Assembly (NCBI GenBank): GCA_002842095.1 | Contig: PHCB01000001.1 | Span: 62,001 to 126,000 of the forward strand | Reading direction: 5' to 3' | DNA: 64,000 bases | From: a candidate division BRC1 bacterium HGW-BRC1-1 | Lineage (GTDB): Bacteria > Sumerlaeota > Sumerlaeia > Sumerlaeales > Sumerlaeaceae | Shown here: one piece after another, positions 28,540 to 55,821 of the stretch | Layout of the letters: each line of letters opens with the position of its first letter | How positions within the stretch are numbered: position 1 is the stretch's first letter | Position numbers and translations under genes: made by a program | Notes under the pieces: generated by a model | What the model was told of the DNA's origin: nothing | The model's database searches: none | What the model saw: the letters and a program-made list of their open reading frames with translations, nothing else

Positions 28540-28702
28540 AGCGGTTTTGACGTAAGTATTAACATCTCCTGCAATCTCGAAATAGTTGGAACATTTGGAT
28601 TCGGAGCGGCTGTGCGTGCAGGGCAAACTGGAGGCCGGGTGGAGGCCGGAAGTAGACCGCTTGATCGATAATGGCCTGCCGATTGCGCGCCAGTTGTACC
28701 GC

Positions 28703-28790
28703 TTGCACACCGCTTGCACACCGGTTGCACGCCGGTTGCACGCCGGTTGCACGCCGGTTGCACGCCGGTTGCACGCCGGTTGCCATCCGC
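28703..28790. repeat. 11-bp tandem repeat, TTGCACGCCGG
   Basis: Eight head-to-tail 11-bp units in the 429-bp spacer between the regulator and thrC. Units 3-7 (28725-28779) are identical TTGCACGCCGG; the first two read TTGCACACCGC and TTGCACACCGG, and the last is degenerate. The period is not a multiple of three, so it is not protein-coding. The same unit recurs at 45950-45982 on the other strand. The rest of this spacer shows nothing else recognisable. Confidence 0.9.
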
Positions 28791-44726: not shown

Positions 44727-44818
44727 GGCGCAACTGGAGGATTACCGCCCGGATTCTTTACGGCAAATCACTGATGATCAACGCAGACGAATCCCGCCAT
44801 CGGACGAACGACCCATCC

Positions 44819-45405
44819 CTGAACCCAGAGGGGCATAGGCTAACTTGGCGCTCATCCCCTGAACCAAGAGGGTGCATAGGCTAACTTGGCGCTCCTCCCA
44901 CGAACCCGGAGGGTTAATAGCCAACTTGCCGCTCCTCAACTGAACCCGGAGGGTTCGAAGCCATTAGCCGGTGGTTGAGGAGCGCAGCGACGACACCACC
45001 GGAAAACTTGGCGCTCCTCCCATGAACCCGGAGGGTTCATAGCCATTAGCCGGTGGTTGAGCGAAGCGACACCACCGGATCACCGCGTCAATCACGTCCG
45101 CATCCCGGAGGGATGCCAGCCATGTAAGATGCGGTCAGGTTTCCGCATAAGCCTGCGACCCCCATCCGGGGTCGAAACCATTTCAACCTTTTTCCGGGGG
45201 TGTCGCTGCGCTCAACCCCCGGCTAATAGCTCAAATCCCTTCGGGATAAGAGATCCCCATGCTACACTTTTCCCTTGGCGCTCCTCCCCCGAACCCGGAG
45301 GGTTCGTAGCCATTAGCCGGTGGTTGAGGAGCGCAGCGACGACACCACCGGACCACGACCCAAATATATTTCGCATCCCGACGGGATGCCAGAAACGTCG
45401 CCCCC
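44819..45405. repeat. REP-like palindrome array beside the Y1 transposase
   Basis: A ~590-bp array with six or seven copies of GAACCCGGAGGGTTC or its variants (near 44820, 44861, 44902, 44942, 45024, 45291), often preceded by AACTTGGCGCTCCTCCC and followed by CCATTAGCCGGTGGTTGAG and a facing ACACCACCGG. Further hairpins GCATCCCGGAGGGATGC, GACCCC...GGGGTC, CCGGGGGT...ACCCCCGG and ATCCCTTCGGGAT occur near 45099-45245. The set ends 7 bp before the transposase start. Design and position are like REP/BIME arrays mobilised by a nearby Y1 transposase. The spacer from 44727 holds nothing else. Confidence 0.9.
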
Positions 45406-46183: not shown

Positions 46184-47812
46184 ATGCCCCCAGCCTCCGG
46201 TAAATCACTCGAAACCTGGATTTGGGATGCCGCCTGTTCCATCCGCGGCGCGAAGGATGCGCCCAAGTACAAGGAGTTCATCCTCCCGCTCATCTTCGCC
46301 AAGCGCCTCTGCGACGTCTTCGACGACGAACTGAACCGCATCGCGAAGGAAGTCGGCTCGCGCGCCAAGGCATTCAAGCTCGTGAAGCACGACAAGAAAC
46401 TCGTCCGCTTTTACCTGCCCCTCGAACCCGGAAACCCCGACGACCCGGTGTGGTCCGTCATCCGCACGCTCTCCGACAAGATCGGCGAGCAGCTCACCAC
46501 CCACATGCGGGCCATCGCCCGGGAAAACCCACTCCTGCAGGGCATCATCGACCGCGTCGACTTCAACGCCACCACCCACGGCCAGCGCGACCTCGACGAC
46601 GACCGCCTCTCCAACCTCATCGAGGCCGTCAGCGCCAAGCGGCTCGGACTCACCGACGTGGAGGCCGACATCATTGGCAAGAGTTACGAATACCTCATCC
46701 GGAAGTTCGCCGAAGGCAGCGGCTCAAGTGCCGGCGAGTTCTACACCCCGCCCGAGGTTGGCACCATCATGTCCCGCGTCCTCCAGCCCGAGCCCGGCAT
46801 GGAAATCTACGACCCCACCTGCGGCTCCGCCGGCCTCCTCGTAAAGTGCGAAATAGCCATGGAAGAACGAAGCCAAAAGGAGAACAAACAAAAGGAGAAC
46901 GGACTTTCCAGTCCGTTGCCTTCAAACAAGAGCGGGTTGGAAAACCCGCACCCCCTTGCGCACCCCTTTGCCCCCCTCAAGCTGTTCGGCCAGGAGTACA
47001 CCCCCGAGACCTGGGCCATGGCCAACATGAACATGATCATCCACGACATGGAGGGCCAGATCGAAATCGGCGACACTTTCAAGAACCCCAAGTTCCGCAA
47101 CAAGGCGGGCAAACTCCGCACCTTCGACCGTGTCGTCGCCAACCCCATGTGGAACCAGAAGTGGTTCACCGAGGCTGACTACGACAACGACGAACTCGAC
47201 CGCTTCCCCGCCGGGGCGGGCTTCCCCGGCGAATCCTCCGCCGACTGGGGCTGGGTCCAGCACATGCACGCCAGCCTCAATACCACCGGCCGCGCCGCCG
47301 TCGTCCTCGACACCGGCGCCGCCTCCCGCGGCTCGGGCAATGCCGGCACCAACAAGGAAAAGACCATCCGCCAGTGGTTCGTCGATCACGACCTCATCGA
47401 GAGCGTCCTCTATCTGCCCGAAAACCTCTTCTACAACACCTCGGCCCCGGGCATCGTCCTCTTCCTCAACAAGGCCAAGCCCAAGGCGCGCCAGGGCAGG
47501 GTCTTCCTCGTCAACGCCAGCCAGGTCTTCGAAAAAGGCGACCCCAAGAACTTCATCCCCGACGCAGGCATCCAGCGCATCGCCGACACCCTCATCGGCT
47601 GGAAGGAGGAGGACAAGCTCAGCCGCATCGTGGACCACGCCGAACTCAAGAAGAACGACTACAACATCTCCCCCAGCCGCTACATCCACACCAGCGACGC
47701 AGAAACCTACCGGCCCATCGCCGAGATCGTCGAGGAACTGAAGGCCATCGAAGCCGAGGCGCGGCAGACCGACAAGGCATTGAAGGAGATTCTGGAGAAG
47801 ATTGGGTTATGA
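46184..47812 (+). CDS. hsdM: Type I restriction-modification N6-adenine methyltransferase HsdM
   Basis: 542 residues. N-terminal HsdM_N helices (LETWIWDAACSIRGAKDAPKYKEFILPLIF). Methylase domain from ~170: SAGEFYTPPEVGTIMSRV, SAM site MEIYDPTCGSAGLLVKCEIA, and catalytic motif IV FDRVVANPMWNQKW (NPMW in place of NPPF, as in several type I HsdMs). APGIVLFLNKAK follows. Between ~225 and 260, where relatives go straight on to APLxLxGQE, there is an extra Lys/Pro/Ser-rich segment; it coincides with two palindromes at 46898-46949 read in frame. With HsdS it methylates adenine in the target site. First gene of a six-gene defence unit. Confidence 0.93.
   Translation: MPPASGKSLETWIWDAACSIRGAKDAPKYKEFILPLIFAKRLCDVFDDELNRIAKEVGSRAKAFKLVKHDKKLVRFYLPLEPGNPDDPVWSVIRTLSDKIGEQLTTHMRAIARENPLLQGIIDRVDFNATTHGQRDLDDDRLSNLIEAVSAKRLGLTDVEADIIGKSYEYLIRKFAEGSGSSAGEFYTPPEVGTIMSRVLQPEPGMEIYDPTCGSAGLLVKCEIAMEERSQKENKQKENGLSSPLPSNKSGLENPHPLAHPFAPLKLFGQEYTPETWAMANMNMIIHDMEGQIEIGDTFKNPKFRNKAGKLRTFDRVVANPMWNQKWFTEADYDNDELDRFPAGAGFPGESSADWGWVQHMHASLNTTGRAAVVLDTGAASRGSGNAGTNKEKTIRQWFVDHDLIESVLYLPENLFYNTSAPGIVLFLNKAKPKARQGRVFLVNASQVFEKGDPKNFIPDAGIQRIADTLIGWKEEDKLSRIVDHAELKKNDYNISPSRYIHTSDAETYRPIAEIVEELKAIEAEARQTDKALKEILEKIGL
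46898..46949. repeat. Palindrome pair (TTCC and GGAA loops) read in frame inside hsdM
   Basis: 46898-46917: AACGGACT-TTCC-AGTCCGTT, perfect 8-bp stem. 46932-46949: GCGGGTT-GGAA-AACCCGC, perfect 7-bp stem, which is the same hairpin type in reverse orientation. AAAGGAGA precedes the first, as at the copies in hsdR. The insert adds about 35 codons without breaking the frame. Confidence 0.88.
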
Positions 47813-49065
47813 TCGGCAGGCAATTAGGATATGCTGCTTTACTCCCTGCCGAATGGGAGGTTACGTCTGTTGGCGAAATTGGCACTTACCTCAATGGTTA
47901 CGCGTTTAAACCAGAGCAGTGGGGCGCCAATGGCGATCCAATTATCCGCATTCAAAACCTGAACGATCGCAACAAACCCTTCAACTACTTCGATGGGGAG
48001 GTCCCCGACAAGTATCGAATCCGCAATGGCGACATTCTTGTATCGTGGTCGGCTTCTTTGGGAACCTTCAGGTGGGACCGGGGTGATGCGTGGCTAAACC
48101 AACACATTTTCAAAGCCTCCCCCAATCTCTCGTCAGTGACGGACGAGTTCTTCTACTGGGTCATGGTCCACGGAATCGAGCGGATCGCAGAAAATGCAAG
48201 GGGAAGCACGATGAAGCACGTCACCGGAAAGGAGTTCAACAACTCCGAGGTGGCAATCCCCCCGCTCCTCGAGCAGAAGAAGATCGCGCACATCCTTTCG
48301 ACGGTGCAGCAGGCGATCGAAGCGCAGGAGCGGATCATCCAGACCACCACCGAACTGAAAAAGGCCCTCATGCACAAACTCTTCACCCAAGGCCTCCGCA
48401 ACGAACCCCAAAAACAAACCGAAATCGGCCCCATCCCCCAAAGCTGGGAGGTGCTTGCTCTGAGTGAGATTGCCGAGTCGTTCCAATACGGCACATCGGT
48501 AAAATGTGCCTACGACGTAAAAGGGAAGGCCGTCTTGCGGATTCCCAATGTTGTCGGAGGTGCTGTCGACATCAGCGACCTCAAGTTCGGCAAGCCAAAG
48601 TCTAGTGAGATCACCAATCTCAGACTTCAGTCGGGCGACTTACTCTTCGTGAGGACGAACGGAGTCCAAGAGAATGCAGGCCGCTGCTCATTGTTCGAGA
48701 ACGAGATCGTAGACTGTTACTTCGCATCGTATCTGATCCGTGTCCGCCTTGATTCGCACACGTTGAATCCATCGTTTCTGAACGAATACAGCCGAACCGA
48801 AACCGGAACCTCGTTCCTAAGCGGCAAAGCCATCCGCACCGCAGACGGCAAGTTCAACATCAATTCCGGAACACTGAAGACAATGCTCGTTCCAGTGCCC
48901 GGCATTGAGGAGCAAGAGGAAATCGCAACCATGCTGTCCCTCATTGACACCAAATCATCCAGCGCACGGGCCAAGCTGTCAGCGCTCCAAGACCTCTTCC
49001 GCACCCTCCTTCACGAACTGATGACCGCGAAGACCCGCGTTCACGAACTGGAGATTTCCGCATGA
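47809..49065 (+). CDS. hsdS: Type I restriction-modification specificity subunit HsdS
   Basis: 418 residues with two target-recognition domains. TRD1 (about 13-150) begins PAEWEVTSVGEIGTYLNGYA; central conserved coiled coil LEQKKIAHILSTVQQAIEAQ, near 157-185; TRD2 begins IPQSWEVLALSEIAESFQYG; C-terminal coiled coil IEEQEEIATMLSLIDTKSSS. It fixes the bipartite DNA sequence read by the HsdM/HsdR complex; the target cannot be read from this. The start overlaps the hsdM stop by 4 bp (ATGA). The thsA start overlaps its own stop by 4 bp, a coupling seldom seen between an RM gene and a Thoeris gene. Confidence 0.93.
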   Translation: MIGRQLGYAALLPAEWEVTSVGEIGTYLNGYAFKPEQWGANGDPIIRIQNLNDRNKPFNYFDGEVPDKYRIRNGDILVSWSASLGTFRWDRGDAWLNQHIFKASPNLSSVTDEFFYWVMVHGIERIAENARGSTMKHVTGKEFNNSEVAIPPLLEQKKIAHILSTVQQAIEAQERIIQTTTELKKALMHKLFTQGLRNEPQKQTEIGPIPQSWEVLALSEIAESFQYGTSVKCAYDVKGKAVLRIPNVVGGAVDISDLKFGKPKSSEITNLRLQSGDLLFVRTNGVQENAGRCSLFENEIVDCYFASYLIRVRLDSHTLNPSFLNEYSRTETGTSFLSGKAIRTADGKFNINSGTLKTMLVPVPGIEEQEEIATMLSLIDTKSSSARAKLSALQDLFRTLLHELMTAKTRVHELEISA

Positions 49066-50513
49066 GCACCGAAGCCATTTCAGAAGAGCAATTCCTACGC
49101 GAGTTCACCAAAGAACTTCATAGTCGGAACGCTGCGGCATTCATTGGGGCTGGCTTCTCGATGTCTGCGGGATACGTCGACTGGCAGGAGCTTCTGAAAG
49201 GCGTTGTCACCGACCTCGGTCTCGACCCAAAAAAGGAACACGACCTAGTCAGCGTGGCACAGTATTCGGTGAACAAGGCGGGTGGAAACAGGAATGGATT
49301 AACCCGGACGATTCTTCACAACATTGGGATCGCGAAGAAGCCAACCAAGGGCCACCGAATTCTCGCGGATCTCCCGATACACACGTTCTGGACGACCAAT
49401 TACGACAAGCTGATCGAAACGAGCCTCGAAGACGCCAGGAAGATTCCGGATGTTAAGCACACTCTCGACCATCTCTCGACGACCCGGCCCGAGCGTGACA
49501 TCATCGTCTACAAAATGCACGGGGACGTTGGTGATCCCACAAACGCGGTCATCTGCAAGGACGACTACGAGCGGTACCCCTTCAAGATGGGGCAGTTCGC
49601 TTCGCTCCTCAAAGGCGACCTCATCGAGAAGACCTTTCTGTTCCTTGGCTTCAGCTTCACCGACCCAAATATCGACTTCATCCTGAGCCGGGTGCGTGCG
49701 GTTCTGGAAGAAAACCAGCGAGAGCACTATTGCATCCAAAAGAAGATCACGAAATGGAAGAATGAGAAGAAGAAGGATTTCGAGTATCGCCAACTGAAGC
49801 AGGATTATTTCATCCGGGACCTGAAGCGGAAGAACATCCAAACCGTCGAAGTGGATACGTACGACGATATTCCTCTCCTGCTTGAGAAGGTCGCCACACG
49901 CTTCAAGCGCTCTTCAATTTTCTTTTCCGGCGCAGCCGCGGAATTTGCTGCATGGAAGCCGAACGAAGTTGACTCCTTTCTCTACGGTCTCGGTGCATCG
50001 CTTTCAGCGGAGAAGAATCGAATCATCACCGGCGCTGGAATCGGAATTGGAGGTGCAGTCATTAGTGGCGCGCTGGACCATCTCGAAAAAGAAGAAATCG
50101 CGATCTCGGAAAAACACCTCATGATGCGTCCATTCCCGCACATGGCGTCCGGGAAATCCGCCTCGAAGGTGAAGCGGACGGCCTACCGCAGATCGATGAT
50201 CGAACACGCAGGGATTGCGGTTTTCGTCTTCGGAAACAAGAGGGATGGTTCCGGCAGGACCATCGAGTCGGACGGCATGAGGGAGGAGTTCGAGTTGTGC
50301 ATCGCGTCGGGCGTTGTCCCGGTGCCAGTCGGAGCAACCGGCTACATGGCTGAAACGCTTTGGAAAGAAGTCTACGAGCGCTTCGATGACTTCTTCCCCA
50401 AGGCGAGCGCCTCAGTCCGCAAGAGCTTTAAGGCAATTGGCAACAGTTCTACAACCCCGTCGAACTTAAGGGATGAACTTCTGAAGATCATTCACCATCT
50501 ACAAGAGGGCTAA
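49062..50513 (+). CDS. thsA: Thoeris anti-phage effector ThsA (SIR2-SLOG)
   Basis: 483 residues, close to the usual length of ThsA. SIR2 NADase domain at ~10-285: AAAFIGAGFSMSAGY, WTTNYDKLIE with Asn113, and YKMHGDVGDP with His153; these match the Asn/His pair essential for NADase activity in characterised ThsA. SLOG sensor domain at ~300-475: IITGAGIGIGGAVISGALDH, AVFVFGNKRDGSGRTIES, and EFELCIASGVVPVPVGATGY. On infection, ThsB makes a cyclic ADP-ribose isomer that binds SLOG and turns on NAD+ breakdown, stopping phage growth. It lies between hsdS and thsB, and its ATG overlaps the hsdS stop (ATGA). Confidence 0.9.
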   Translation: MSTEAISEEQFLREFTKELHSRNAAAFIGAGFSMSAGYVDWQELLKGVVTDLGLDPKKEHDLVSVAQYSVNKAGGNRNGLTRTILHNIGIAKKPTKGHRILADLPIHTFWTTNYDKLIETSLEDARKIPDVKHTLDHLSTTRPERDIIVYKMHGDVGDPTNAVICKDDYERYPFKMGQFASLLKGDLIEKTFLFLGFSFTDPNIDFILSRVRAVLEENQREHYCIQKKITKWKNEKKKDFEYRQLKQDYFIRDLKRKNIQTVEVDTYDDIPLLLEKVATRFKRSSIFFSGAAAEFAAWKPNEVDSFLYGLGASLSAEKNRIITGAGIGIGGAVISGALDHLEKEEIAISEKHLMMRPFPHMASGKSASKVKRTAYRRSMIEHAGIAVFVFGNKRDGSGRTIESDGMREEFELCIASGVVPVPVGATGYMAETLWKEVYERFDDFFPKASASVRKSFKAIGNSSTTPSNLRDELLKIIHHLQEG

Positions 50514-50614: not shown

Positions 50615-50784
50615 ACGGCGTTTCTTTCGCATAGTCACAAAGATTCGTATCTCGCCAGAAGCCTTCCAAACCCAAGGGTGGGAGATTTGCATTGAGGGAT
50701 TTGATGCTTTCAAGCCAAACTAGTCAGGCATCAAGGACGTCGACCTCACAGCCAGAGGACCAAACTACAAGCAAAGGAGATACC

Positions 50785-51276
50785 ATGGCACGCAGAGTTT
50801 TCTACAGCTTCCACTACGAGCCCGACAATTGGAGGGCGTCAAAGATTCGGAATATTGGAGCAATTGAAGGCAACCAACCTGCCACCGACAATGATTGGGA
50901 GACGGTTACGGATCGGGGTGATGCTGCGATTGAGAAATGGATTAAAGATCAGATGGCAAGCCGCTCGTGTGCGGTGGTCTTGATCGGGCAAAACACCGCC
51001 GGACGAAAGTGGATTAAACACGAGATCCGTGAAGCTTGGAATGGAGGAATGGGCCTTCTCGGAATTCATATCCACAATATTACGAACAGCTCAGACGAAC
51101 AATCTGATATGGGAACGAATCCATTCTCCGAATTCAAGATTGGAGACAAGTCCCTTTCCTCAATTGTTAAGGTCTATGACCCGCCGTTTTCAAGGAGCAG
51201 CATCGTCTATAATTACATCGCCGATAACATTGCTGATTGGATCGACGAAGCGATCGAGATTCGCAAGAAATACTGA
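50785..51276 (+). CDS. thsB: Thoeris TIR-domain protein ThsB
   Basis: 163 residues. The ATG at 50785 has AAAGGAG 6 bp upstream. RVFYSFHYEPDNWRASKIRN is the defining N-terminal strand and loop of the ThsB/DUF1863 TIR family. The probable catalytic Glu is E80 in GRKWIKHEIREAW, the usual place of the TIR Glu. FSRSSIVYNYIADNIADWID ends the fold. ThsB recognises infection and converts NAD+ to the signal that activates ThsA. It follows thsA by 271 bp and precedes the duplicated 5' end of hsdR by 9 bp. Confidence 0.9.
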   Translation: MARRVFYSFHYEPDNWRASKIRNIGAIEGNQPATDNDWETVTDRGDAAIEKWIKDQMASRSCAVVLIGQNTAGRKWIKHEIREAWNGGMGLLGIHIHNITNSSDEQSDMGTNPFSEFKIGDKSLSSIVKVYDPPFSRSSIVYNYIADNIADWIDEAIEIRKKY

Positions 51277-51285
51277 CTTGAGACC

Positions 51286-51459
51286 ATGCCCACACCCGGA
51301 GAACACAAAACCGTCCAAGCCCGGATCCTCGCATACGCCGAGGCAATCGGTTGGACGGTTTTGTCCCGCGAGGAAGCCAACAAAAGGAGAGCGGGTTTTC
51401 CAACCCGCTGTTTGGGGAATGGCGGACAGGAATGTCCGCGCCCCCTTTTCTTAAAATAG
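51286..51459 (+). pseudogene. First duplicated copy of the hsdR 5' end (57-residue stub)
   Basis: Begins MPTPGEHKTVQARILAYAEA and carries the HsdR N-terminus through SREEANKRR, then runs into a palindrome pair (51390-51409 and 51422-51439) and ends LFLK-stop. Intact relatives continue straight into SLFFDEL. The stop is 2 bp before the next copy's ATG, so ribosomes could re-initiate from one copy to the next. Stub function unlikely; presumed by-product of repeat insertion. Confidence 0.8.
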
Positions 51460-51461
51460 CC

Positions 51462-51635
51462 ATGCCCACACCCGAAGAACATAAAACCGTCCAGGCCCGC
51501 ATCCTCGCATACGCCGAGGCGATCGGCTGGACGATTGTGTCTCGCGAGGCAGCCGAAAAAAGGAGAGCGGGTTTTCCAACCCGCTGTTTGGGGAATGGCG
51601 GACAGGAATGTCCGCGCCCCCTTTTCTTAAAATAG
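51462..51635 (+). pseudogene. Second duplicated copy of the hsdR 5' end (57-residue stub)
   Basis: Begins MPTPEEHKTVQARILAYAEA and continues to SREAAEKRR, then the same palindrome element (51566-51585, 51598-51615) and a stop at 51633-51635, 2 bp before the true hsdR ATG. Its coding part is closer to the third (functional) copy than the first copy is. Confidence 0.8.
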
Positions 51636-51637
51636 CC

Positions 51638-54600
51638 ATGCCCACACCCTCCGAACATAAAACCGTCCAGGCCCGCATCCTCGCATACGCCGAGGCGATC
51701 GGTTGGACAGTTGTGTCCCGCGAGGCGGCCGACAAAAGGCGAGGGGGCATTCTTGCCCCCCGGCATTCGGGCCAATATGGAGGACACGGTGGACAAGAAA
51801 GTCCCCCCTCCCTTTTCTTTGATGAGTTGGTTGAGGCCAAGGTGCGGGAATTTAACCCGCGCTACGCCGAGGCCGAGGGGGCGTTGCTCTGGCAGTTTCG
51901 CCTCATCCACACCGACATCTACGGCAACCGTGATTTCCTCGAACACCTGCGCAACCGGGGCAAGTTCTTAGACCACGAGGAGAAGCGTGAGCGCGACCTG
52001 ATCCTGATCGATTACGACGACCCGACGCGCAACGTGTACGAGGTCACCGAGGAGTGGGCATTTCACAACGGCTTCCATGGCACGCGCGAGGACGTTGTCT
52101 TTCTCATCAACGGCATCCCGGTGCTGATGATCGAGTGCAAGAATGCGACCAAGGGCGAGGCGATCGCGCTGGGGATTGACCAGATACGCCGCTACCACTC
52201 GGAAACCCCCGAAGTGATGACGCCGGAGATGCTCTTCATCGCGACGGAAGCCATCGGCTTTGCCTACGGCGTGACCTGGAACACCGTCCGCCGAAACATT
52301 TTCAACTGGAAAGGAGAACCAAACCCAAACACGGGGAAAGGAGAACGGGTTTTCCAACCCGTTGAACCAAACCCAAACGGGGGAAAAGGAGAACGGGTTT
52401 TCCAACCCGTTGAACCAAACCCAAACGCGGGAAAAGGAGAACGGGTTTTCCAACCTGTTGAACCGAACCCAAACACGGGGAATGGAGAACAGGTTTTCCA
52501 ACCCGTTGAACCGAACCCAAACGGGGATTCTAACACGGGCAGGAATGCCCATGCTCCTTTTTACTCGCCGGACGTTGAAACCGACAAGCACCGGCGCAAC
52601 CTCCCCCATTGGCAACAGGGAGAAGCTTGGATATCCGTAACCTGGCGGCTGGGCGACTCACTTCCCAAGGCGAAACTCGACCAGTGGAAGGCGGAACGTG
52701 CGGCCTGGCTGTCCCATCATCCCGAGCCCTGGGACGAGAACACCGAGGCCGAATATCACAAACGTTTCTCTGAGCAGATCGATGAGTGGTTGGATCAGGG
52801 CAGCGGTTCGTGTGTGCTGAAGGACCCTGCGAACTCGAAGATTGTGGCGGATGCTCTGCGGCATTTTGATGGGGAGCGGGTTGAGCTGGCGTCGTTCGTG
52901 GTCATGCCGAATCACGTGCATGTTTTGTTTCGTCCGATCGGCGGGCACGAGCTGGAAAATGTTTTGAAATCGTGGAAGGGATTCACGGCGCGGGAGATCA
53001 ACAAGCGACTCGGCAAGACCGGGGCGCTTTGGCAGGATGAATATTGGGACCGGCTGATCCGGAGTGAACAGCACTTCTTCAAGTCAGCAGAGTATATCCA
53101 AGAGAACCCCTCGAAAGCGCAGTTGCACGAAGGACAGTTCGTCTTGTGGGAGAGCGGGTTTTCCAACCCGCCGAAGTGTCCCCCCTCCGTTCCGGGTCGC
53201 CTCGAAGACAAGGTGAAAAGCTTCTGCGACCCAGCCCACGTGCTGCGGTTGCTCAAGGACTTCATCCTCTTCGCCGAGAAGGAGGAGGAACTCCAGAAGT
53301 TCATCCTGCGCCAGCATCAGGCGACGGCGGTGGACCGCGTGGTGGAACGCGCGCTGGACCCCACACGGACGCGGGGGCTGGTCTGGCACACGCAGGGCAG
53401 CGGCAAGACCTACACGATGATCAAAGCGGCCGAGTTGATGTTCAAGGCAAACGAGGCGCAGAAGCCCACGATCCTGTTGATGATTGACCGCAACGAACTG
53501 GAAGACCAGATGCTCAAGAATCTGGCGTCGGTCGGGTTGGCGAATGTGGCCCACGCGGACCGCATTACGACGTTGAACAGCCTGCTTGATGAGCGTGGGC
53601 AGGATTACCGCGGCATCATCGTGACGATGATCCACAAGTTCCGCGATATGCCGGCTGACCTGAACACACGAAAGAACATCTTCGTGCTGATTGACGAGGC
53701 GCACCGCACGACTGGCGGCGACCTGGGCAATTTCCTGATGGCGGGCCTGCCGAACGCAACGTTCATCGGGTTCACGGGCACGCCGGTGGACCTGACGGCT
53801 TACGGCAAGGGGACCTTCAAGACCTTCGGCTGCGAGGACGACAAGGGATACCTGCACAAATACTCCATCGCCGAGAGCATCGAAGATGGCACGACGCTGC
53901 CGCTTTACTATAACCTCGCGCCCAACGAAATGCTGGTGCCGCTCGAGATCATGGAGAAGGAATTCCTTGCGCTGGCCGAGACCGAAGGCATCTCGGACAT
54001 TGAGGAACTGAACAAGATTCTCGAGCGCGCGGTGAACCTGAAAAACTTCCTCAAGGGGAAGGATCGGGTTAACAAGGTGGCGCGATATGTGGCCGACCAT
54101 TTCCTCCAGAATGTCGAGCCGCTGGGCTACAAGGCGTTCCTGGTGGCGGTAGACCGCGAGGCGTGTGCCTTCTACAAGGAAGCGCTGGACGCCATCCTGC
54201 CGCCCGAGTATTCGGAGATCGTCTTTACCGGCAACAACAACGACGAGCCCCACCTGAAGAAGTGGCATCTCGACCCGAAGAAGGAGAAGCAGATCCGCAA
54301 GAGCTTCACCAAGCCGGGTGAGTGGCCGAAGATTCTGATCGTCACAGAAAAGCTGCTGACGGGCTTTGATGCGCCGATCCTCTACGCCATGTATCTCGAC
54401 AAGCCGATGCGCGACCACACGCTGCTGCAAGCCATCGCGCGCGTGAATCGCCCCTATGAGAACGAGGCGGCGGAGATGGTGAAGCCCCACGGGTTCGTCC
54501 TGGATTTCGTGGGCATCTTCGACAAGCTGGAGAAGGCGCTCGCATTCGACAGCGACGAGGTCAATGCCATCGTCAAGGATCTGGCTCTGCTCAAGCATCT

Positions 54601-55459
54601 GTTCAAAGCAAAGATGGAGACCAAGGCGCCGCCGTACCTGGCGCTGGTGACGGGCAATTTCAACGACAAGGACGTGGACAACCTTATCGAGCAATTCCGC
54701 GACAAGGAGCGGCGCAAGGAGTTCTTCAGGGAATACAAGGAGATCGAGATGCTCTACGAGATCATCTCACCCGACGCATTCCTGCGTCCGTTCATCGATA
54801 ATTACACGACGCTGTCGTCGATCTATGCCGTTGTTCAGAACGCCTATGCGAAGAGGGTTTATGTCGACCGGGCGTTCCAGAAGAAGACGAACGAGCTCGT
54901 GCAAAAGCACATCGGCGCGGACCAGTTGGAACGCGTGACCGAATTCGTGAAAATCGATGCCGACACGATTGAGCTCATCAAAGAGCAGCAGGGCGGCTAC
55001 GGGACGAAGATCATCAATCTCGTCAAGAGCATCGAAAAAGCTGCGGAGGAAGAGAGCGGTGATCCGTTCCTCATTGCGCTGTCCGACCGGGCAATGGCCG
55101 TGCAGGAGAATTTTGAGGAGCGGCAGAGCAGCACGGAGGAAGCGCTTGCGCAGTTGTTCACGGAAATAGAGAGGAACGAGCAGCGCAAGAAGGACCAGGC
55201 CGCCAAGGGCTTGGATGACCTGACTTATTTCGTGCTGTGCAAGCTCACCGAGGACGGCATCCCCAGTGCGAACCTGGCCAGCAAGAAGGTGGGCGAGGCA
55301 TTCACACAATTCTCGAATTGGCGGCGGAGCGAGGCCGAACTGCGCGAACTGCGCAATAAGGTGACCTTCGCGATCTTCGAGGTGGAGGACGACATGGCCA
55401 AGGTCTCGGCGACTGTTGAGGCGTTGTTCGTGCTCCTTGAGAGGAGTTACCGCCAATGA
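51638..55459 (+). CDS. hsdR: Type I restriction endonuclease HsdR with in-frame RAYT transposase domain
   Basis: 1273 residues. Residues ~1-225: HSDR_N nuclease, with REDVVFLINGIPVLMIECKN giving the D...E-x-K site (E166, K168), and GVTWNTVRRNIFNWK at the end. Residues ~227-520 are foreign: four 16-residue repeats (KGERVFQPVEPNPN), then a REP-associated tyrosine transposase domain (~312-505, HUH at VVMPNHVHVLF), then a palindrome-coded linker. Residues ~525 on resume HsdR: Walker A VWHTQGSGKTYTMI (K590), DEAH VLIDEAHRTTGG (D686), helicase C domain with ILIVTEKLLTGFDAPILYAM, and the C-terminal helical region. Without the insert it would be ~980 residues, the normal length. ATP-driven translocation and cleavage motifs are intact, so it may still be active. 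It overlaps the DUF45 gene by 4 bp. Confidence 0.93.
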   Translation: MPTPSEHKTVQARILAYAEAIGWTVVSREAADKRRGGILAPRHSGQYGGHGGQESPPSLFFDELVEAKVREFNPRYAEAEGALLWQFRLIHTDIYGNRDFLEHLRNRGKFLDHEEKRERDLILIDYDDPTRNVYEVTEEWAFHNGFHGTREDVVFLINGIPVLMIECKNATKGEAIALGIDQIRRYHSETPEVMTPEMLFIATEAIGFAYGVTWNTVRRNIFNWKGEPNPNTGKGERVFQPVEPNPNGGKGERVFQPVEPNPNAGKGERVFQPVEPNPNTGNGEQVFQPVEPNPNGDSNTGRNAHAPFYSPDVETDKHRRNLPHWQQGEAWISVTWRLGDSLPKAKLDQWKAERAAWLSHHPEPWDENTEAEYHKRFSEQIDEWLDQGSGSCVLKDPANSKIVADALRHFDGERVELASFVVMPNHVHVLFRPIGGHELENVLKSWKGFTAREINKRLGKTGALWQDEYWDRLIRSEQHFFKSAEYIQENPSKAQLHEGQFVLWESGFSNPPKCPPSVPGRLEDKVKSFCDPAHVLRLLKDFILFAEKEEELQKFILRQHQATAVDRVVERALDPTRTRGLVWHTQGSGKTYTMIKAAELMFKANEAQKPTILLMIDRNELEDQMLKNLASVGLANVAHADRITTLNSLLDERGQDYRGIIVTMIHKFRDMPADLNTRKNIFVLIDEAHRTTGGDLGNFLMAGLPNATFIGFTGTPVDLTAYGKGTFKTFGCEDDKGYLHKYSIAESIEDGTTLPLYYNLAPNEMLVPLEIMEKEFLALAETEGISDIEELNKILERAVNLKNFLKGKDRVNKVARYVADHFLQNVEPLGYKAFLVAVDREACAFYKEALDAILPPEYSEIVFTGNNNDEPHLKKWHLDPKKEKQIRKSFTKPGEWPKILIVTEKLLTGFDAPILYAMYLDKPMRDHTLLQAIARVNRPYENEAAEMVKPHGFVLDFVGIFDKLEKALAFDSDEVNAIVKDLALLKHLFKAKMETKAPPYLALVTGNFNDKDVDNLIEQFRDKERRKEFFREYKEIEMLYEIISPDAFLRPFIDNYTTLSSIYAVVQNAYAKRVYVDRAFQKKTNELVQKHIGADQLERVTEFVKIDADTIELIKEQQGGYGTKIINLVKSIEKAAEEESGDPFLIALSDRAMAVQENFEERQSSTEEALAQLFTEIERNEQRKKDQAAKGLDDLTYFVLCKLTEDGIPSANLASKKVGEAFTQFSNWRRSEAELRELRNKVTFAIFEVEDDMAKVSATVEALFVLLERSYRQ
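52316..52534 (+). repeat. 48-bp in-frame tandem repeat with TTCC hairpins inside hsdR
   Basis: Four full units (52316-52363, 52364-52411, 52412-52459, 52460-52507) and a partial fifth. Each carries AACGGGTT-TTCC-AACCCGTT or a near variant (stems at 52344, 52392, 52440, 52488) preceded by AAAGGAG or a near variant. The unit is 16 codons, coding for KGERVFQPVEPNPN plus two variable residues. Not CRISPR: there are no unique spacers and the frame is kept throughout. Confidence 0.92.
52537..53171 (+). mobile_element. REP-bracketed RAYT (REP-associated tyrosine transposase) inserted in hsdR
   Basis: The transposase domain at 52571-53150 reads RRNLPHWQQGEAWISVTWRL at its start and ADALRHFDGERVELASFVVM before the HUH site. 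HUH codons His-Val-His are at 52913-52921 (PNHVHVLF). WQDEYWDRLIRSEQHFFKSA leads to EYIQENPSKAQL, where the catalytic Tyr of RAYTs lies. It is bracketed by an upstream GGGCA-GGAA-TGCCC hairpin (52537-52550) and a downstream GCGGGTT-TTCC-AACCCGC hairpin (53154-53171) of opposite loop orientation. Both key motifs are intact and it lies in the hsdR frame with no stop. Confidence 0.9.
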
Positions 55460-55821
55460 CCGCATGGCGCGACAAGGACGAGTTCAAGGCCCGCGTCTTG
55501 GAGTGGGCGGACAAGCTGGGCGTGAAGGCGCACTCGTTGTCGGTGCGTCCGATGCGCCGCAAGTGGGCGTCCTGCTCGACAGCGGGCAATCTGAGCTTCA
55601 ACAGCGAACTTCTCGATCTGAATCGCGAGTTGGGCGATTATGTCATCGTCCACGAACTCCTGCACTTCCACGCGCCCAACCACGGCAAGCTGTGGAAAAG
55701 CCTGATGCGTGCGCACCTCGGCGACTATGAGGTTCAAGCCGACAGATTGCCGGTCTTGGGCGAATCCACCACGCCGGGCCAGCCGCCGCCAAAGAAGCAC
55801 CCAAACCGTTCCGCATCATAA
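55456..55821 (+). CDS. DUF45/YgjP-like zinc metallopeptidase
   Basis: 121 residues. HExxH-type zinc motif VIVHELLHFHAPNHGKLW, with the third ligand His in the usual place. SVRPMRRKWASCSTAGNLSF is the DUF45/SprT-like signature. The last ~20 residues are a Pro/Lys/Ser-rich tail. Its ATG overlaps the hsdR stop by 4 bp, so it is translated with the RM operon, an association seen often for this family. Substrate unknown; a role in removing or processing RM subunits is a reasonable guess only. Confidence 0.88.
   Translation: MTAWRDKDEFKARVLEWADKLGVKAHSLSVRPMRRKWASCSTAGNLSFNSELLDLNRELGDYVIVHELLHFHAPNHGKLWKSLMRAHLGDYEVQADRLPVLGESTTPGQPPPKKHPNRSAS

Follow-up and report, generated by a model that had tools for sequence, protein, structure and literature searches.

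How does a restriction gene come to possess its own beginning three times over, with the three beginnings differing from one another and the palindromic modules of two of them identical? We consider this question for a type I restriction-modification operon in a 64,000-nucleotide stretch of DNA from the candidate division BRC1 bacterium HGW-BRC1-1 (contig PHCB01000001.1), here called the window. In it hsdM, hsdS and an hsdR that encodes an HSDR_N nuclease together with helicase domains are recognised through Pfam matches to HsdM_N, N6_Mtase, Methylase_S, HSDR_N, SWI2_SNF2 and a T1R_D3-like domain (Table 1). The hsdR motifs appear intact when judged by eye, and between hsdS and hsdR lies a Thoeris pair, ThsA and a TIR-domain ThsB, identified through PDLC00407 (E 3e-181) and PDLC00433 (E 9e-71). 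A REP-like piece is found in frame in hsdM (about 46890-46957), and other short tandem arrays occur in the window at 28699-28783 and 44817-44954, with periods of 11 and 40.

Table 1. Positions of the features discussed, in window coordinates
Feature	Coordinates	Strand	Remarks
hsdM	46184..47812	+	
hsdS	47812..49065	+	start estimated within the ORF listed from 47374
ThsA-like SIR2-STALD protein	49062..50513	+	Thoeris cargo
ThsB TIR-like protein	50692..51276	+	Thoeris cargo; stop 9 nt 5′ of unit 1
Unit 1	51284..51459	+	CC, hsdR codons 1-35, inverted REP pair, TAG
Identical tract of unit 1	51382..51459	+	78 nt; two REP-like palindromes, GGAG tag, AAAATAG
Unit 2	51460..51635	+	layout as unit 1
Identical tract of unit 2	51558..51635	+	78 nt
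hsdR proper	51638..55459	+	1273 aa; HSDR_N, SWI2/SNF2-ResIII helicase, T1R_D3
REP-like module of unit 3	51743..51808	+	in frame, HsdR residues 36-57
Mosaic breakpoint of HsdR	52148..52177	+	approximate, near residue 175
In-frame insert of HsdR	52313..53200	+	residues 226-521; REP repeats and REP-associated Y1 transposase
REP tandem array within the insert	52316..52522	+	48-bp, in frame

Directly 5′ of the gene the first 35 hsdR codons are present three times in copies 176 nt apart, with ATGs at 51286, 51462 and 51638, and the first two open stubs of 57 aa each (51286-51459 and 51462-51635) whose TAG stands 2 bases before the following ATG, all of which bears out the original prediction. The 176-nt direct repeat has a TRF score of 795, with copy 2 identical to copy 1 at 93% and copy 3 at 64% of positions. 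Between units 1 and 2 there are 12 differences in the first 98 positions and none in the last 78, a clustering with p = 6e-4 if divergence were uniform, and this confirms the earlier observation that coding parts had diverged around identical modules. The identity is nonetheless longer than the 80-bp module first described, as it runs for 92 nt through the module, the stop and the CC up to codon 4 of the following copy. The three coding starts differ from each other at 9-12 positions per pair in the first 100 nt (pairwise identity 88-91%), mostly at third positions and about half in synonymous codons. The module itself consists of two REP-like palindromes in inverted orientation and a GGAG tag, and unit 3 holds a different but related one at the equivalent position.

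The array is best read against other loci of its kind. Scanning genomes with the helicase region of HsdR gave 80 named hsdR loci, selected independently of stubs, of which the 64 with at least 1.5 kb upstream of hsdR form the testable set, window included. A same-strand upstream copy of hsdR nt 1-300 is present in 19 of these 64 loci, or in 18 once L090, a REP match, is set aside; the 18 are the window and 17 other members of its HsdR family from many phyla, and their fragments derive from the first ~320 nt of the gene. L090 and L119 were initially counted as stubs and later dropped as REP or linker matches, L072 matches at the protein level only and was left out of the stub count, and L018 has a stub but less than 1.5 kb upstream and thus falls outside the 64. 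Other 300-nt windows of hsdR find upstream matches in 0-4 of 61-63 loci, all of which are either dispersed repeats, REP-like or other, or no longer than 32 nt, and downstream of hsdR same-strand matches to nt 1-300 occur in 2 of 67 loci. Of 46 loci in which an hsdS end was recognised, 43 have an hsdS-hsdR gap of at least 300 nt and only 3 a shorter one; within these 43 gaps, copies of the hsdR 5′ end are found in 14 and copies of the hsdS 3′ end in none. Decay of a complete second hsdR should have left middle and 3′ pieces as well, and was rejected since nt 301-2700 give only REP-like or dispersed repeats or short matches.

The same feature appears outside this family. In an independent sample drawn almost entirely from other HsdR families, 5 of 56 loci hold 5′ copies upstream (L142, L158, L166, L180, L188), and the control windows in this sample match in 2, 0, 0 and 0 of 56, both hits having a length of 25 nt. 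No stubs are present in eight plasmid loci of a different HsdR family (0 of 8), and a plasmid search with the hsdR start of the window's family returned no match; among E. coli chromosome loci and type IC hsdR loci on plasmids, L197 is without hsdS-hsdR cargo and L198 is interrupted by IS1. Mapped onto a tree of the hsdR body, the presence of stubs requires at least 15 changes. Stubs upstream of hsdR recur across many unrelated bacteria and are not a local curiosity.

Most of these fragments do not look like copies of the gene that they precede. The best match is the hsdR start of the same locus for 8 of 23 stubs (6 of 18 when REP hits and stubs below 60 nt are removed), and for 15 of the 23 the hsdR start of another organism matches equally well or better, some margins being small, as for unit 1 of the window, a near tie at 148 versus 149 bits. 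A tandem duplicate would be expected to resemble the gene beside it most closely; as 15 of 23 do not, most stubs look like displaced alleles, a reading drawn from the comparison of starts. Against it stand the 6-8 stubs that are best matched by their own start, and the position of the window stubs outside the allele group of the window's helicase part. The window's HsdR is a mosaic, residues 1 to ~170 lying nearest one allele group (mostly 75-86% identity) and residues from ~180 onward nearest a second (mostly 80-95%, lower at the C-terminus), and with stub and helicase allele groups mismatched, the mosaic join need not be the event that produced the stubs.

The strongest competing account is that of an old tandem duplication within the lineage, the starts of which diverged under some constraint while conversion or unequal crossing-over homogenised the modules. 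The exact 176-nt period with its identical junctions speaks for it, as do the best match of unit 2 among 72 starts, which is unit 3, and the wealth of third-position differences, as in old divergence. A plain recent duplication had already been judged inadequate in the original prediction, rightly so, as the starts of the window diverge from one another about as much as from hsdR starts of other phyla, to which they are up to 90% identical. The same between-phyla level of divergence also weighs against an old duplication, and at other loci the stubs are split by unrelated cargo and hence are no tandem duplicates, so that we regard this account as improbable, if the most serious of the alternatives. 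A simple crossover of units 1 and 3 as the source of unit 2 was tried and is at odds with the way in which the units share sites.

We propose instead a model, which we consider reasonably probable, in which an incoming cargo end with its adjoining hsdR start recombines into a resident hsdR and leaves the old start behind as a stub. The incoming DNA would consist of the end of a cargo gene and the 5′ part of hsdR; its right join would form by homology within hsdR, and its left join would be illegitimate and fall within the first ~320 nt of the resident gene. The resident start would then remain as the stub, the incoming start would take over as the working one, and repeated events would build arrays of the order stub-cargo-stub-cargo-hsdR. 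Homology-facilitated illegitimate recombination, with one homologous and one illegitimate join, is known from laboratory transformation and would yield this anatomy; it is a candidate route at the present loci, where the stub ends vary and the HsdR of the window is a mosaic. The search returned no pair of strains from before and after a stub event. The only close pair that differs in cargo, on Azotobacter plasmids, breaks at the hsdR ATG with the stub absent, so a change of cargo is possible without leaving a stub.

In the window, Thoeris would have arrived together with the start of unit 1. An acidobacterial assembly (L122) carries hsdM, hsdS, ThsA and ThsB in the order of the window, followed by an hsdR without a stub. 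Its ThsB-hsdR spacer is 9 nt, as in the window, and the alignment between the two, a region only ~82% identical, is unbroken from ThsB into unit 1, so that unit 1 is the start proper to the Thoeris junction. The alignment also reaches a gene for a YgjP-like metallopeptidase 3′ of hsdR (55456-55821). At least one later event would have added a start accompanied by no more of its cargo than the final codon and the stop, resulting in an array free of cargo: both units 2 and 3 are preceded by the junction AAA TAG CC ATG, and its AAA TAG may well be the last codon and stop of a cargo gene that was lost or never fully transferred. The identity of the two junctions means that the second unit did not arise from an illegitimate join of its own; it was probably added through recombination inside an array already present.

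The identical modules can be accommodated in this history. Relatives in other phyla (L077, L090, L117, L130) have REP modules in frame at the equivalent HsdR linker, near codon 36, and the module therefore probably belonged to some hsdR alleles before stubs were formed. The identity does not stop at the palindromes but takes in AAAATAG, CC and the opening codons of the following copy, and it is therefore not explained by independent insertions. A single tract of gene conversion or template switching would account for it, and a collapsed assembly repeat would do so equally. The separate conversion of the module that was first suggested is accordingly possible, one tract of ~92 nt being enough. 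The suggestion that a transposase homogenised the module from elsewhere is not supported and was rejected, as the 78-nt tract has ten matches in the assembly, a draft of 34 contigs, of which eight are partial and the complete ones are units 1 and 2 themselves, and as the tract includes the stop and next ATG, outside the REP element.

The draft state of the genome also lends something to an assembly artefact, in which variant hsdR starts were joined via a shared palindrome node and one consensus module was written twice. Repeat collapse and bubble popping yield an identical repeat between diverged flanks, as seen here. We nevertheless think an artefact unlikely, because the units are different enough to be resolved, every join needed reads, and like stubs are present in many other assemblies. 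Less probable again is a functional leader array, in which the stubs would be translated and their number would tune HsdR by termination-reinitiation. Both stubs are open and no Shine-Dalgarno sequence is visible by eye upstream of 51638. Re-initiation fits the anatomy of the array because a stop 2 nt from the hsdR ATG, as in TAG CC ATG, is an ordinary cargo-hsdR junction and indeed the commonest spacing (found at 13 of the 65 loci that have a proximal gene). Elsewhere, however, some stubs are frame-broken or internally deleted, indicating that they are not generally maintained. That a REP-associated transposase copied the module independently into two existing starts is highly improbable: REP modules recur at the linker in other bacteria and the gene contains a transposase domain, yet the genome has no other full copy and AAAATAG, CC and the next ATG lie in the identical tract but outside the palindromes.

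The proposed recombination of cargo end and hsdR start is also consistent with what lies between stubs at other loci, where they generally alternate with cargo, often defence genes. The cargo following stubs includes RhuM, DUF1016 nuclease, Fic, DUF3800 and AAA_14-DUF4143 proteins as well as HipA, deaminase-HATPase, Schlafen-AlbA and others, and located before stubs are Gabija, an AAA_13 protein and a CBASS cyclase with a 4TM effector. Serial arrays run AAA-stub-DUF1016-stub-Fic-hsdR in L065 and hsdS-stub-RhuM-stub-Fic-hsdR in L114, and the order in L063 is Gabija, stub, RhuM, hsdR. Cargo is thus flanked by hsdR-start repeats, for example in L065, L114, L117 and L128, and in the window the cargo between the repeats is missing; a second nearly cargo-free case is L060, with Gabija, a decayed stub and then hsdR at 70 nt. 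Of the 10 loci where hsdR lies next to HipA, 9 have the MKP form of the start, which lacks a residue relative to the usual one, as against 4 of 62 others, and on the tree independent pairs stand at 6 to 0 (median p 0.03, in a test devised after the starts had been seen). A general linkage between cargo type and hsdR start was rejected as weak only, being reached by 95 of 2000 permutations.

A wider claim, which we put forward tentatively and with somewhat less than even confidence, is that the hsdR 5′ end serves as a general docking slot, where each arrival would bring an hsdR start of its own, renew the working start and leave the old one as a stub, and where homology between stub and start would free cargo. 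If this is true, type I loci gather defence and toxin genes without an integrase, and the triplicated start of the window is the slot after cargo loss. An integron cassette array likewise adds cargo serially beside a fixed gene, the newest nearest the fixed end. Serial cargo beside hsdR resembles this, but here the stubs end anywhere from ~40 to ~315 nt into hsdR, so that a fixed site is not used, and no integrase was found among the seven window proteins scanned; a fixed integration site and a site-specific, integron-like array were both rejected on these grounds.

The closest published likeness is the insertion with long target duplication of Helicobacter pylori restriction-modification genes (Nobusato et al. 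2000, as covered in PMC3031569 and PMC1643837), where direct repeats of a long target stretch flank an insert at restriction-modification loci, as they do in the present loci with cargo. In the Helicobacter pylori case, as given there, it is the restriction-modification genes that were inserted; in the present loci the hsdR start is the repeated target and the inserts are other genes. Furthermore, the two copies in the present loci do not, for 15 of 23 stubs, look derived from one resident target, and they are often different alleles. The RptR/RRDM island, with darTG2 between hsdS and hsdR, has been described by its authors as a potential recombination hotspot (PMC12255303), and it shares the placing of defence genes in the hsdS-hsdR gap; the passages on it in that paper give neither stubs nor a mechanism. 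Within the open full-text literature, outside of which subscription papers largely fall, no description of hsdR-start fragments between cargo genes was recognised, which is not proof of novelty. Within the literature searched the recurrent hsdR-start scar appears new, as do its strict confinement to the 5′ end and its allelic character, and the parts are of known kinds. The means by which islands of defence genes form without help from transposons or integrases still await explanation, and a scar of arrival beside hsdR would make the order and source of arrivals readable from sequence. The scar is a simple search signature for thousands of type I loci, and the confinement of the fragments to the first ~320 nt of the gene, across several unrelated HsdR families, renders the mechanism testable.

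The HsdR of the window carries a further in-frame addition in place of ~6 residues found in uninterrupted relatives. A PF01797 match at 52874-53104 (residues 413-489) and REP repeats on both sides of this Y1_Tnp domain mark it as a putative REP-associated tyrosine transposase. The insertion site is NIFNWK / LE-KVKSF, and like inserts with a Y1 domain are present at the equivalent HsdR site in seven other loci from several phyla (L063, L065, L066, L077, L090, L110, L112), the flanking residues having been fully read for L063, L077 and L110 only. On the hsdR tree the insert requires at least 5 changes, with L066, L110 and L112 left out of the tree. In-frame palindromic repeats in proteins are already known from REP in genes (PMC3733652) and from Rickettsia palindromic elements, and include DNA-repair genes and tRNA synthetases; what PMC3733652 describes in its relevant part are short repeats, and HsdR holds a whole in-frame transposase domain besides, for which a search of the open full-text literature recognised no report of a whole transposase in frame in a gene. 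In L110 the hsdR with a transposase insert also contains an in-frame stop in the nuclease motif region, from assembly error or as a pseudogene. The leucyl-tRNA synthetase that is the sole close match in L042 (G032) and L046 (G033) carries an in-frame transposase at about equal position, and the leucyl-tRNA synthetases of the relatives G026, of the genus of G032, and G013 are without it. Finally, in L032, L038, L047 and L049 such a transposase lies in frame in other large proteins that are, by appearance, methyltransferase- or helicase-like.
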